Below, piece after piece: positions 5,687-21,606 of a stretch of 62,172 bases of DNA. Where the stretch lies: positions 1-62,172 of the forward strand of contig CANJRV010000004.1 of NCBI GenBank assembly GCA_947476825.1, written 5' to 3'. Source of the stretch: Bacteroidota bacterium. GTDB taxonomy: Bacteria; Bacteroidota; Bacteroidia; Chitinophagales; Chitinophagaceae. Each line of letters starts with the position of its first letter. Position 1 is the first letter of the stretch. A program made the translations under genes and the position numbers. The notes under the pieces were generated by a model that saw only the letters and a program-made list of their open reading frames with translations, was not told the DNA's origin and made no database searches.

Positions 5687-8600
5687 CTACTTTATCTTTT
5701 TGAAATATTCTTCTACCAATTGTTTGTAATAAGGCTTTAATTCGGCAGGGACGGTTTTGTAATAATCAATGATGGATTGCTTATTTTTTAACACGTCTTT
5801 TAGCTGTTGCGGAATTTCTTTTACGCCATCTTTACCAGCATTGGATTCTCTTTCATCGCCTTGTTCTTGTTGGCGAATGGCATCTTTTGCTTCCATTAAT
5901 CTGGTCATGATTTCGGATTGGCGACGAAGCATATCTTGTGTCATTCGCTTGTTCACAATTTCGGTTTCGTTGCGATCCATATCGGCTTGTATTTTGGTTA
6001 AGTTTGGATTGCTTTTACCATCTTTACGAAGTTCATTATTGATATCATTCAATTGCTTTCTCAAGGCAGCTTGTTGTGCTGCTATTCTAGCCATTTGTTC
6101 AGACTCTCCACCGCCTTCTTCACTTTCACCTTGATCGCCAGACTTGCCATCTTTCCCATCTTTGCCCGGTTTGTCTCCAGGTTTTTGACCCGGTTTATCT
6201 CCCGGTTTATCACCCGGTTTATCACCAGATTTTTGCCCTGGTTTCTGTCCCATTTTTTTGAGCAGTTGCTCCATCGCACTTCCCAATTTTTGTTGTTTAC
6301 TCATAATGTCACCCAGTTGCATACCAACGCCTTTGCCTGGTTTTTTAGATGGTTTGCCACCAGGTTTCTTGCACGATTTGCTTCCTTCCCCTTCCTTCAT
6401 TTGTTCGGCTTGTTGTTGCATCAATTGTTGCAATACTTCATTCAACATCAAGGCTAAATTATTTGCACCAGTCATTACATACTGCTGGTTCACGCTAGCT
6501 TGTGGGGTTTGTCTTTGTTCTAAACTCGCAATGGCGCCATCCATATTTCTATTGATGCCATCAATTTCTTTATTGACTGTTGACGACAACATAGATAATT
6601 TTTTGCTCAATGCAAATAAACTATCGGCTATCATATTGCCATCTGTTTTTAGCTTTTGTTGCGTTTGAATATTGGCAACAAAATTTGGATCGGCTATTCC
6701 TGTAGTTTGCACCAAATGAATTAAATCTTCTTGCGAGAAAGACATACGAATTAAATTCTGAAGTATTTGTCTTACCGCTTTAATATTAATATCCAATTCA
6801 TCTTCATCGCCACCTGCAGCTTCTTCTTCCATTTTTTTTGCTAACTTTTCCAAACTTTCTTTCGCTTTCTTTTGTGCTTTAGAAGCTTTATTGCTATTCC
6901 CACTTTTTAATTCATCCGAACTGTTGTTCATTTCTTTTTCCGCATTTTGCTCTTCTTCTTTCATCTCCTTCAAGTCCGCCTTATTCTCCATTTGTTCATT
7001 CACTTTTTCCATCTCCGCAATGTCCTTTTTCAAGGCATCCATTTCTTTATTCAAATCATCTTGCTTCTTCTTCAATTCCGCTTCTGGCTTGGTATGCGCA
7101 TCCGTTTCTTTATTTAAATCATCTTGCTTTTTTGCTAAGTCTGCTGCTTTTTTAGCAATGTCTTCCATACGCATGTCACGTTCCAATTGCTTCATCAATT
7201 CTACCATTCTATCCAAATCTTTTTCCATCAACTTGTCATCTTGCTCCATTTGTTTGAGCTTCTCAAATAGCTTGTCTTTATCCAACAATTTCATGAGCTC
7301 TTCCATTTTTTTCATGCGCTCATCTAATTGTTTATCTTTTAATTCATCTAATAAATTTTCTAAATTTTCCTGTTTGTCTTTTATCTCTTCTGAATAGTTT
7401 TTATCCTTAGATTGTTTGTTGTTTTGTTCAAATTTCTTTTGGACATTTTCTATTTGCTTTTGCAAATTATCATTCCGCTCTTTCATCTCTTCCATCACTT
7501 TCTTGTCATTAAAATCTAACTCATCTTTTTGCAATAATTTTTCTTGCAATTTTTTAATGTCTTTATCTACTTTATCATTGTCTTTTGCAACATTGTTTAA
7601 ATCTTTGGTTACTTCTTCTTGCTTTTTCTCAATCAAAGAATCTAATTTTTTCGCACTTGGTTTTTCATAATTGAAGGTTACACTTTTGGTGCATTTGCTA
7701 CCATTGACAGCATCATTATCACAAACCGAAAAATTGTAAGTAAGCATATCGCCAGCCTGTAAATTCAATTCATCTATTTGTAGAAATTGATTAAACTGAG
7801 CGAATGTGCCACCTGTATTTGGAACAGGAATTGAACCATTTTTTACTGGTCCAAGTGCATTGCCATTTTCATTGGTATGTTGAATCGCATAATTTAAAGA
7901 GATGGAACGAATGCCATAATCATCGCCTGCTTCACCAACAAAAAGTACATATTCACCAGTTAAAGAATCATTGTATTGTTGCACATTGATGGAAGGCATT
8001 TGGTCAGGAATAATCGACACATTGTAATGCAATGAATCCATTTTTTGAACTTGTTGATTGGAAATTAATACGCTGTACGTTGTATCTCTCATAAAACGGT
8101 AATTGTAAAAAAACTGATTGCCTGTATGTATCATGGAAGTTGGCGTTCCATTGCCCAAAGCAAATTGCATATTGTCAGTATGATCGGTATTAAAAGCCCA
8201 TCGCAATGTGGTGCCTTGTGGTGCAATGATGTCGCCAATATTGTCTAGCATTTCATCTTTACGGCCAGTATAATCAGGATAGTCAACAGATACTTTGAAT
8301 TGTTTGATAACTGGTTTTTGTAAGGTTTTTATTTTATATTTTGTACTACTGAATCCGCTAGAAGTAAAATTAAAATCAACGTCTTTAGCTACTTTGTAAA
8401 AGGTGTGTGTGAATGTATTTTTTTCTTTATGCTGCATCACCACTTGTTGCCCATTGTATTCAACCATCACTTGTTCCGGAATTATTTTTCCTTGTGTACG
8501 TGTGATAATTTCAATATCATCAAACTGCGTGACATTCAATTTTTTGGTAAGTAATTCAAACGTAAATGGTGCAGGAGGAATAAATTGATGGGAAGGAGAA

Positions 8601-17530: not shown

Positions 17531-17562
17531 CGACATGGCATTCGAAATATCGAAGACTCTTA

Positions 17563-17640
17563 AATCATGTCATCCCTACGGGATTTTGCTTTCGACCTAT
17601 AATATTATTTCTATAATCATGTCATCCCTACGGGATTTTG
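17563..17640. repeat. Pair of 26-bp direct repeats
   Basis: The 26-base unit (17563-17588, core CATCCCTACGGGAT) recurs exactly at 17615-17640 with 26 unrelated bases between. The core is itself a short palindrome. With only two copies it is not a CRISPR array; it looks like another dispersed repeat. Confidence 0.6.
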
Positions 17641-17817: not shown

Positions 17818-17848
17818 CAAAAATGCCCCAATGAAGGGGCATTTTATC
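17818..17848. terminator. Bidirectional rho-independent terminator ending the repeat-array transcript
   Basis: The hairpin AAAATGCCCC / GGGGCATTTT has a 6-base loop and T runs on both strands. On the minus strand it follows the 21-bp array that trails the gene at 18287-19018. It therefore marks the probable 3' end of that unit. Confidence 0.75.
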
Positions 17849-17853
17849 TTGTA

Positions 17854-18273
17854 GGGTGTTTCTTTTCTGTTAGCAGTTCGCATTTCACTTATTGTAGACT
17901 TGCTTTGCGCGGTATGGAAGACAACTTGCATTTGTAATGTACCTTGTTTACTTGCTCTGGAAGCTCGATTTTTTGCTCAGGATGCTCGTAGCGTTATTAC
18001 AAAGTTAAGAAGTCTTTTACAGGATGCTCGTAGCGTTATTACAAAGTTAAGAAGTCTTTTGCAGGATGCTCGAGGCGTTATTGCAAAGTTAAGAAGTCTT
18101 TTGCCGGATGCTCCATTTCCTTTTACGGATGCGAGATGCGTTATTATAAAGTTAAGAAGTCTTTTGTCGGATGCTCCAAGTCTTTTACCAGATGCTCCAT
18201 TTCTTTTTGTGGATGTAAGATTTCTATTAACGAATGCAAGATGCACTGTACTGGCTAAATGATTTCTGCATTT
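17854..18273 (-). repeat. 21-bp-period tandem array, about 20 units
   Basis: In register every 21 bases. The clearest units run 17980-18168. Type A is GGATGCTCGTAGCGTTATTA plus C; type B is AAAGTTAAGAAGTCTTTTAC plus A; they alternate A-B. Unpaired A-like variants (GGATGCTCCATTTCCTTTTA plus C) occur at 18106, 18169, 18190 and 18211. Units below 17959 and above 18232 are degenerate. Because 21 is divisible by three, both strands are open: the minus strand would give heptads such as CKRLLNF-VITLRAS. The array starts about 14 bp after the stop of the upstream gene and runs to within 10 bp of the terminator, so it is probably a transcribed 3' region. Whether it is translated is unclear. Confidence 0.85.
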
Positions 18274-18286
18274 GCTAATGGAATTC

Positions 18287-19018
18287 TTATGCTTTCGGCT
18301 TCGTAAACCTAATATTGCTAATTTGTTTATACTCGGGGGCGGTAGTTCCATAAATTGACTTTACATAGTCTTTAACAGCTGCGGTTATATCATATAATCC
18401 TGTTTTGTCTTTATACAATGTTTTATCTCTTGCTATACGAGCATTGGATACTGCGGTGTAAGCGTTAGATACATTTGTATTGGCGGTTTTGAGTGCTGCT
18501 AATTGGGTTGTAAGGGCTGCAATTTTAAGATCTACTTCATTTGGCGCATAATTGGCTTCGGGTGTTTTGAGTAGTTCTATTATTTTAGTAAAATGTTCTA
18601 TGAGTTGGTCGAAAGATTGTTGAGATGAGCTGATGGTTTTTGGAGCGGGCGTATTAGGGTCGGTAGATTCTTGCACTGCTTTTGCTCTTTTGCCTTGTAT
18701 TTTTCTGTTGATGGCTTTAGCATCTTTTATCATTTCGGTGGTGGCGTCGGTGGCGGAGAATGCGTTTACTAAACGGGTAGTGAGTGGGCGAAGTGGTTCG
18801 AATAAAAGTGCTCGTGCATTGGTAGCATTATTGTATGCTACAGATTTGGTGGTAACGTTGAGGAGGTCGGCTTTGGCAGTGGTGAACAGTGTGTTTAATG
18901 ACACTAGCTTGATGGGAACTTTTGTGGGGTTGTAGGTGGCTCCATAACCTGTGATGAACGAAATAAAATCTTCAAAGTTTGCTACGTTTTTGGCGTGGCC
19001 GGTTTCTGTGTTTTGCAT
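18287..19018 (-). CDS. Conserved Bacteroidota hypothetical protein preceding a repeat array
   Basis: 243 aa, no signal peptide or membrane helix. It is almost entirely alpha-helical with Ala-, Asn- and Thr-rich helices (LKTANTNVSNAYTAVSNARI near 185) and opens with GHAKNVANFEDFISFITGYG. A basic helix INRKIQGKRAKAV lies near 105. No catalytic motif is visible. I recall similar proteins starting with the NVANFEDLI phrase in other Bacteroidota, without known function; this is memory, not a search. It is followed at once by the 21-bp array and a terminator, and is flanked upstream by a worn REP-like element, so the locus looks like a self-contained accessory unit. Confidence 0.7.
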   Translation of the reverse strand: MQNTETGHAKNVANFEDFISFITGYGATYNPTKVPIKLVSLNTLFTTAKADLLNVTTKSVAYNNATNARALLFEPLRPLTTRLVNAFSATDATTEMIKDAKAINRKIQGKRAKAVQESTDPNTPAPKTISSSQQSFDQLIEHFTKIIELLKTPEANYAPNEVDLKIAALTTQLAALKTANTNVSNAYTAVSNARIARDKTLYKDKTGLYDITAAVKDYVKSIYGTTAPEYKQISNIRFTKPKA

Positions 19019-19156
19019 AATATATTTGTTTTTAAAAGTGAAAAGGAAAAGTAAAAAGCTTCTTTGAAAAATCCAAATTTGGGGGATGGGAAAATTTAGC
19101 GCGCGCTATAGGTGCAGCTTTATAAAGAGATTGATTATTACATTCTGCTGATTATA

Positions 19157-21463: not shown

Positions 21464-21468
21464 CAAGA

Positions 21469-21606
21469 AAGTCGTAAGTCGTAAGGCGTAAGTTAAAAGT
21501 CGAAAGTAAAAAGGCGTAAGTAGAAAATAGTAAGTCGTAAGGCGTAAGTAGTAAGTAAATAGTAGAAAGTAAATAGTTAAAAGTCAAAAGTCGAAATCCG
21601 AATTCC
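21469..21606. repeat. Low-complexity AAGTCGTA / AAGTAGAAAGTA tract
   Basis: About 135 bp of reiterated AAGTCGTA, AAGGCGTA, AAGTAGTA and AAAGTCA units. Any reading frame across it is an artefact of the repeat. Confidence 0.7.

Follow-up and report, generated by a model that had tools for sequence, protein, structure and literature searches.

A Bacteroidota gene family without annotation and its adjoining 21-bp tandem arrays: a candidate module of a protein and its own DNA array

The window, i.e. the whole stretch of DNA analysed here, comprises 62,172 nucleotides of contig CANJRV010000004.1 (assembly GCA_947476825.1), from a member of the family Chitinophagaceae in the phylum Bacteroidota. On its minus strand an open frame for a 243-aa protein is followed by a tandem array with a period of 21 bp and then by an intrinsic terminator (Table 1). 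A sequence-only reading of this DNA had described the gene, the array and the terminator as one unit, and the open minus-strand frame, the 21-bp register of the array and the strong terminator at its end were all found as described.

Table 1. Features of the gene-array locus in the window
Feature	Position	Strand	Basis or remark
5' flank common to both genomic copies	19019..19096	-	BLAST block starting 78 bp ahead of the start codon
Gene of the 243-aa protein, stop codon included	18287..19018	-	Open frame; family alignment, AF2 model
Array of 14 clear units of 21 bp; partial alternation of two unit types (42-/63-bp higher order)	17951..18244	-	TRF; in-register scoring
Degenerate stretch from the clear units to the terminator	17846..17950	-	Five units, one weakly positive (17908)
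Intrinsic terminator, strong hairpin and T-run GCCCCTTCATTGGGGC-ATTTTT	about 17819..17841	-	Sequence

TRF reports arrays within positions 17978-18215 of the window, with periods of 21, 42 and 63 bp. In-register scoring finds 14 consecutive positive units, so that the earlier count of about 20 was generous, and the first of them starts about 42 bp beyond the stop codon of the gene and not about 14 bp beyond it, as had been read. The two unit types that had been noticed alternate strictly from 18118 to 17972, and this alternation over part of the array accounts for the higher-order periods of 42 and 63 bp. The lag-21 scores of the two copies of the array in this genome are 39 and 57, while the far-flank control segments have a 99th percentile of 17.3 and a maximum of 25.6 (n=135); the local array exceeds chance. 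An overlapping reading frame (17977-18351) crosses the array. Two further tandem repeats were observed elsewhere in the window, a 7/14/28-bp array at 21466-21596, just past the 3' end of a gene that resembles histidyl-tRNA synthetase by eye, and a 79-bp repeat at the contig end (62001-62172), perhaps an assembly break point.

The second copy of gene, array and terminator is located on contig C6 of the same genome and encodes a protein with 98% amino acid identity (dN/dS 0.06 between the copies). The block shared by the two copies measures about 1.3 kb; it begins some 78 bp ahead of the start codon and ends a little beyond the terminator (about 17804), in surroundings that are otherwise unlike. 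Neither terminal inverted repeats nor a target duplication were seen by eye at the ends of the block, and the array DNA has no further match in the genome beyond the two copies (E≤0.001). The two arrays differ by a clean 63 bp, i.e. three units. The claim that the array is modular and not simple slippage is only half right in view of this difference.

In a genome of the same genus (L002/L021) two stretches correspond to the window locus, one from -223 to +130 and the other from about +1286 to +1455; the part between them, which holds the gene beyond codon 43 together with the array and the terminator, is missing. The farther flanks have no match at the same level, synteny with the window locus being likely, and from this gapped locus the module is probably dispensable. 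The gapped locus (L002:3779-4423, apparently the same DNA as in L021) is followed by a 52-bp tandem array containing CCCGTAGGGATGACA, which is also present at about 17560-17640 of the window.

Searches of Pfam, NCBIfam, PHROGs, PADLOC and PDB sequences gave no convincing cover of the 243-aa protein, which is, as far as sequence comparison can tell, a member of an unannotated Bacteroidota family. A family profile built from 22 homologues matched 28 of 394 genomes in the set of the taxonomic family, 34 of 298 in that of the order, 36 of 345 in that of the class and 9 of 395 in that of the phylum, these sets overlapping. The distribution is patchy, some genomes have at least five matches, and the tree of the family often groups the copies of one genome together. 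Purifying selection is indicated by dN/dS values of 0.05-0.31 in nine pairs, one of which is saturated at silent sites. The protein of the window is basic (pI about 9.6), as are the members of the family in general (median pI 9.5, n=123). Its AF2 model (mean pLDDT 89) is all-helical with two successive helical bundles, the predicted helices comprising residues 8-24, 38-73, 76-88 and 94-108 of the first bundle and residues 131-150, 166-202, 208-223 and 228-234 of the second.

With the family model as query, Foldseek searches of PDB and BFVD gave nothing at E≤0.001. Among the fold matches listed there are only generic helical bundles and no recombinase, Nop-fold, ParB or Rep chain. A known DNA-binding domain was not found beyond chance-level matches in Pfam and in other profile, sequence and fold searches; HTH_Cmi2_C was touched by one of the 22 members (E 0.042). 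Stray matches of single members to phrog_4103 (E 0.0011), PDC-S06 (0.0021), Csx1 (0.0022), the TssA-like TIGR03362 (0.0045) and MAP65 (0.0047) were read as helical-protein noise. The window protein has no match in curated plasmid (72,556 records, E 1e-5) or phage collections, and a single match among the viral contigs of IMG/VR (L162:1317-2033).

Clustering of 835 neighbouring ORFs yielded one cluster that recurs in 21 dereplicated loci and resembles PKD/T9SS secreted proteins by eye; every other cluster recurs in at most three, and no conserved operon partner was found among these ORFs. In the loci L009, L010, L100, L023 and L120 (about -330 to +1410 from the gene start) a frame with an XRE-type HTH, recognized by eye, lies directly before the gene; such HTH-like neighbour frames cluster in just 3 dereplicated loci. 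In L009-like loci the block they share has a sharp end at AAACGTT, behind a conserved tail, and this could be the end of a gene cassette. The homologue frame of L007 (G005:C1:3611660-3612379) extends to 286 aa, into the array region, and upstream of one family gene lies a CRISPR-like array with a 66-bp period and the repeat GTTGTCAAAGATACAATTTTAAAAGCTTTTCACAAC (L024:3-1094).

For a survey of the linkage between gene and array, 142 frames covering at least 150 profile positions were reduced to 128 that are distinct by gene sequence, similar genes being kept. The fetched loci are a part of all profile matches, with many contig-end fragments and weaker matches left out. Among periods of 10-40 bp, the best period in the 700 bp downstream was 21 in 105 of the 128 genes and 22 in three. 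A best period of 21 was found upstream of 15 of 126 genes, in 11 of 135 segments at a distance of 1.0-1.7 kb, and within the gene bodies themselves in 30 of 128.

With 20 as the minimum score for calling an array, and with up to 900 bp downstream and 700 bp upstream of each gene covered, arrays lay downstream of 107 of the 128 genes (103 at 21 bp, three at 22 and one at 20) and upstream of 13 (12 at 21 bp, one at 20). Eight genes remained below the threshold, three of them with 42-bp arrays; five genes are array-less (L013, L014, L026, L028 and L064), one of these with just 485 bp of downstream sequence. Seven positive calls are weak, namely the downstream calls in L007, L010, L022, L093, L116 and L127, whose scores of 25 or less lie inside the far-flank maximum of 25.6, and the upstream call in L159. 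The 22-bp units belong to one clade (L153-L155). In the family median the array starts 73 bp after the stop codon, is 247 bp long and comprises about 12 units.

In the 243 kb lying no more than 1 kb from the gene there are 108 strong period-21 segments, versus three in the 241 kb farther off. These three are an inserted run of N, a coiled-coil-like stretch of a long ORF and a 7-bp array, and none of them is a 21-bp DNA array. The ORF stretch, at 6903-7626 of the window, lies within a coding sequence for 1155 aa, and its 21-bp periodicity resembles coiled-coil heptads and not a DNA array. The upstream position of the array requires six changes on the family tree, the weak call in L159 accounting for one of them; the array thus stays with its gene while its side can change. 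Whatever the mechanism, the linkage of gene and array extends over many genera. The proposed union of gene and array has accordingly withstood the comparison with homologues: nearly all of them in this sample keep an array, arrays that occur freely without the gene are rare away from it, and the linkage recurs in Bacteroidota loci with unit sequences that differ between loci.

Tests of unit motif and harmonics were confined to the 106 arrays with scores of at least 35, which selects well-kept arrays. Conservation along the units has a power of 0.203 at 10.5 bp versus 0.100 (103 arrays, z 6.7), and of 0.178 after dereplication at 60% protein identity (76 arrays, z 4.7). The 10.5-bp harmonic exceeds both neighbouring harmonics (p 7e-5 and 4e-4; 103 arrays, not dereplicated) and is the largest harmonic in just 22 of 76 arrays. 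The G+C profile of the units has no 10.5-bp peak (power 0.087), so that the 10.5-bp conservation is not simple phased bending; intrinsically bent DNA was rejected on this ground. Half-repeats of 10-11 bp were likewise rejected, the excess match at lags 10-11 being negative, as was a dyad in the 21-bp units that is seemingly visible in the consensus (z -0.7).

Circular alignment of 76 unit profiles gives a weak common motif on the strand of the gene, about AAAyTnGC..yyGCAA, with 2.96 bits versus a mean of 2.09 and a maximum of 2.21 in 25 column-permuted nulls. The excess similarity of units on the same strand is 0.211 for proteins above 85% amino acid identity (5 pairs), 0.072 at 70-85% (20 pairs), 0.037 at 60-70% (24 pairs) and 0.003 at 20-30% (1300 pairs), and between L153 and L154, a pair of close paralogues from a single genome, the units are unrelated. 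The spacing is kept across loci while the letters of the units turn over. With such a fast turnover, sequence-specific recognition would need either frequent re-evolution or looseness. In one locus (L011:930-1447) approximately 25 similar 21-bp units were observed; three or four neighbouring positions in them are freely variable, and most of the others are nearly fixed.

A second family with arrays is DUF6261 (PF19775), which matches 3 of the 22 family members weakly (best E 0.0035) and has no match at E≤0.001 in the genome of the window; hhalign of the family against DUF6261 gives a probability of 12% with an E of 0.0025. The DUF6261 model has eight helices in two successive bundles (mean pLDDT 85). 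Foldseek found no PDB match at E≤0.001 for it, and its top PDB matches overlap those of the family and include the same sensor bundles. VIA Z reaches 8.7 and 9.9 against helical sensor bundles for the family and DUF6261 models, which may reflect just a common arrangement. The fold matches listed for DUF6261 include a chain of a DGR ribonucleoprotein (8ub7_B, Z 8.9 over 100 residues), and a match of the DUF6261 profile to PDCD6IP (E 0.00062, 90 residues) was read as helical-protein noise.

Of 43 DUF6261 loci, four without a usable frame were dropped and 39 counted, mostly from one genus and not dereplicated. The best period (10-63) is 41 or 42 bp in the 700 bp upstream of the gene in 36 of the 39 loci, and downstream in one of 39. 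In the 29 loci with an array score of at least 30, which were used for the dyad and RNA tests, the units have strong dyad symmetry (z 14.5). Mismatches in these dyads comprise three G-U and six A-C, a pattern that fits DNA dyads over RNA stems, the numbers being small. Folding of these arrays is also stronger than that of permuted controls (z -2.75 sense, -2.26 antisense). DUF6261 is possibly related to the 243-aa family, to which it is similar in length, in the eight-helix, two-bundle model, in the overlapping PDB matches and in having a helically phased array beside the gene; it differs in the upstream position of the array, in the 41/42-bp dyad units, in its proteins, which are not basic (median pI 5.9, n=35), and in that the sequence link is weak. 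The periods of 21, 22, 41 and 42 bp are all near whole helical turns. In the open-licence PMC literature DUF6261 was found in a single paper.

The reading preferred here, to which we give slightly better than even chances, is a module composed of a DNA-binding protein and its own multi-site DNA array, a helically phased row laid out like sopB-sopC. The array would offer roughly twelve sites of weak conservation, each exactly two turns of the helix from the next, and because of this spacing the bound proteins would line up on one face of the helix, where they might form a cooperative nucleoprotein row beside the gene. We infer that the family protein binds the array, as DNA; among the options raised earlier for the array, DNA bound by the protein remains the best. 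In favour of this reading are the tight linkage with arrays on either side of the gene, the 10.5-bp rhythm, the common motif in one orientation, the basic charge of the protein, the lack of promoter motifs before the arrays, the changes of side and the dyad-bearing DUF6261 arrays. Weighing against it are the lack of a known DNA-binding domain beyond chance-level matches, the fast turnover of units, the minority of arrays with 10.5 bp as largest harmonic, the absence of this rhythm from sopC, the gene bodies with 21 as best period, the weak sequence link to the non-basic DUF6261 proteins and the features shared with guide-RNA arrays. Such a nucleoprotein cluster could, speculatively, act locally in autoregulation, in tethering or in the positioning of DNA. 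As the role of the module our first choice, again a speculative one, is self-maintenance as an accessory module, because there is no recurrent partner, the gene is patchy and multicopy, the module was duplicated in one piece (and probably lost), and its layout is that of sopB-sopC.

Like the family, sopB-sopC of the F plasmid has a tandem array close downstream of a gene, the binder role being presumed in the case of the family. Applied to sopC as a control, the same measure counted 11.6 copies of 43 bp, placed their start 79 bp past the end of the ParB-family gene located after sopA, and detected no 10.5-bp rhythm in this array, the only known one tested. Twelve 43-bp repeats with ten 16-bp inverted repeats are given for sopC in an excerpt of PMC6238139. 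The DUF6261 arrays, with their 41/42-bp periods and dyads, resemble sopC more than the family arrays do. Unlike sopB-sopC, the family has several copies in some genomes and a fast turnover of units; the Pfam scan of 22 members (E≤0.1) found no ParB domain, and the non-exhaustive clustering of neighbouring ORFs brought out no partner ATPase as a recurrent neighbour. Iterons are direct repeats of about two helical turns beside the gene of their binder, and the family arrays, with their presumed binder, are similar in both respects; a Rep domain is absent from the Pfam matches of the 22 members.

In ToxIN the repeat RNA is encoded upstream of the toxin. This antitoxin is an RNA made of repeats, according to an excerpt of PMC8860590. 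ToxIN shares with the family short tandem repeats beside one protein gene, whereas most family arrays are downstream and without promoter motifs or RNA structure. With regard to a ToxN-like fold, the predicted model is all-helical and only generic helical bundles are among the matches listed. In TIGR-Tas, as far as described in an excerpt of PMC12045711, a protein gene is accompanied by a tandem array upstream or downstream that ends in terminators, with units that vary between loci; the position on either side and the locus-variable unit sequence are shared with the family. The family differs in a period fixed near 21 bp, as against a TIGR dual-repeat unit processed to 36 nt. A Nop domain is absent from the Pfam matches of the 22 members, and PF01798 has no match in the genome of the window, while the control matched 4 of 14. 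Hypervariable 9-nt spacers are absent, with a mean excess match of 0.351 at both lags 21 and 42, and unit conservation peaks more at 10.5 bp than at 21 bp.

Judged by its sequence, the module is not a member of ParABS or of TIGR-Tas nor, by its protein, an iteron replicon, and it is regarded as categorically new because it has the full defining features of none of the systems tested. No description of it was found in the open-licence PMC literature, as judged from titles and abstract openings, and we judge it to be undescribed so far. A wider reading is tentative, with the chances rather against it: a new chromosomal class of modules in Bacteroidota, in which double four-helix-bundle proteins (the family and DUF6261) would have private helix-phased sites, replaceable in sequence but not in spacing, would read spacing and helical face more than sequence and would build a nucleoprotein cluster next to their own genes.

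Several other explanations of the array were considered. It is unlikely that the units act as RNA, either transcribed and processed or as a multi-site RNA bound by the protein, in the manner of type III toxin-antitoxin systems or TIGR-Tas. The array of the window precedes the terminator and lies in the probable transcript of the gene, the motif has a consistent strand orientation relative to the gene, and the folding of the DUF6261 arrays is in favour as well. TIGR arrays, too, lie upstream or downstream and end in terminators, and since they also switch side, side switching alone does not decide against RNA (excerpt of PMC12045711). However, an intrinsic terminator stands between gene and array in at least 44 of the 107 downstream cases, sometimes directly abutting the array; the finder allows loops of up to 21 bases, and some terminators are missed. 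As 13 of the 128 genes moreover have the array upstream, one transcript for gene and array, as proposed from the window, is not the rule. The core of Bacteroidota promoters is TAnnTTTG, whose enrichment upstream of the genes (21.9% versus a null of 8.8%, n=128) validates the promoter test; the motif is not enriched before the arrays (1.4% versus 4.6%, n=71) or antisense after them (1.9% versus 4.9%, n=104). The earlier suggestion of a structured RNA finds no support in the family arrays, which fold little better than column-permuted ones on both strands (z -0.28 sense, -0.23 antisense, n=76). The DUF6261 dyads have no more G-U than A-C mismatches, and neither a hypervariable spacer nor a Nop domain accompanies the family. 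Least probable by far is a heptad peptide reached by a frameshift, for which it can be said that 21 is a multiple of 3, that the overlapping frame crosses the array of the window, that the frame of L007 runs into the array region and that stop-free frames are slightly above the null. This option was rejected because a 3-bp period of conservation is absent (power 0.086 versus 0.101), a stop-free sense frame exists in 45 of 102 arrays with a null of 37.6 (either strand 62, null 51.1), the 22-bp units of the three loci L153-L155 cannot keep a reading frame, and neither can the 41-bp arrays of DUF6261.

Somewhat less probable than an RNA is a substrate for mobility or recombination, the protein acting through the array to mobilize, amplify or integrate gene and array together. 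Gene, array and terminator were indeed duplicated as one block in unlike surroundings, some genomes have five or more matches that often cluster by genome on the tree, and partial matches occur at contig ends. Against this, the ends of the block bear no terminal inverted repeats or target duplication by eye, no recombinase is among the fold matches listed, and matches of the window protein are limited to a single viral contig, with none in the plasmid or phage collections. We consider it less probable again that the arrays are an unselected satellite, made and turned over by slippage, whose linkage to the gene reflects a fragile or slippage-prone site. The rapid unit turnover between close paralogues and the fact that the two local copies differ in length by exactly three units would be expected of such a satellite, but slippage leaves unexplained the fixed period across classes, the placement by the same gene on either side, the shared motif and the rarity of arrays farther off.

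If the module is indeed a DNA-binding protein with its own array, an unnamed Bacteroidota gene family would be tied almost obligatorily to a DNA partner, and a testable biochemical role would be at hand for two uncharacterized families at once. Keeping the spacing of sites while their sequence drifts would be an unusual mode of recognition. With its small size (about 1.3 kb) and self-contained make-up the module lends itself to simple binding and deletion tests; if binding holds, it may become a new branch of protein-plus-array modules.
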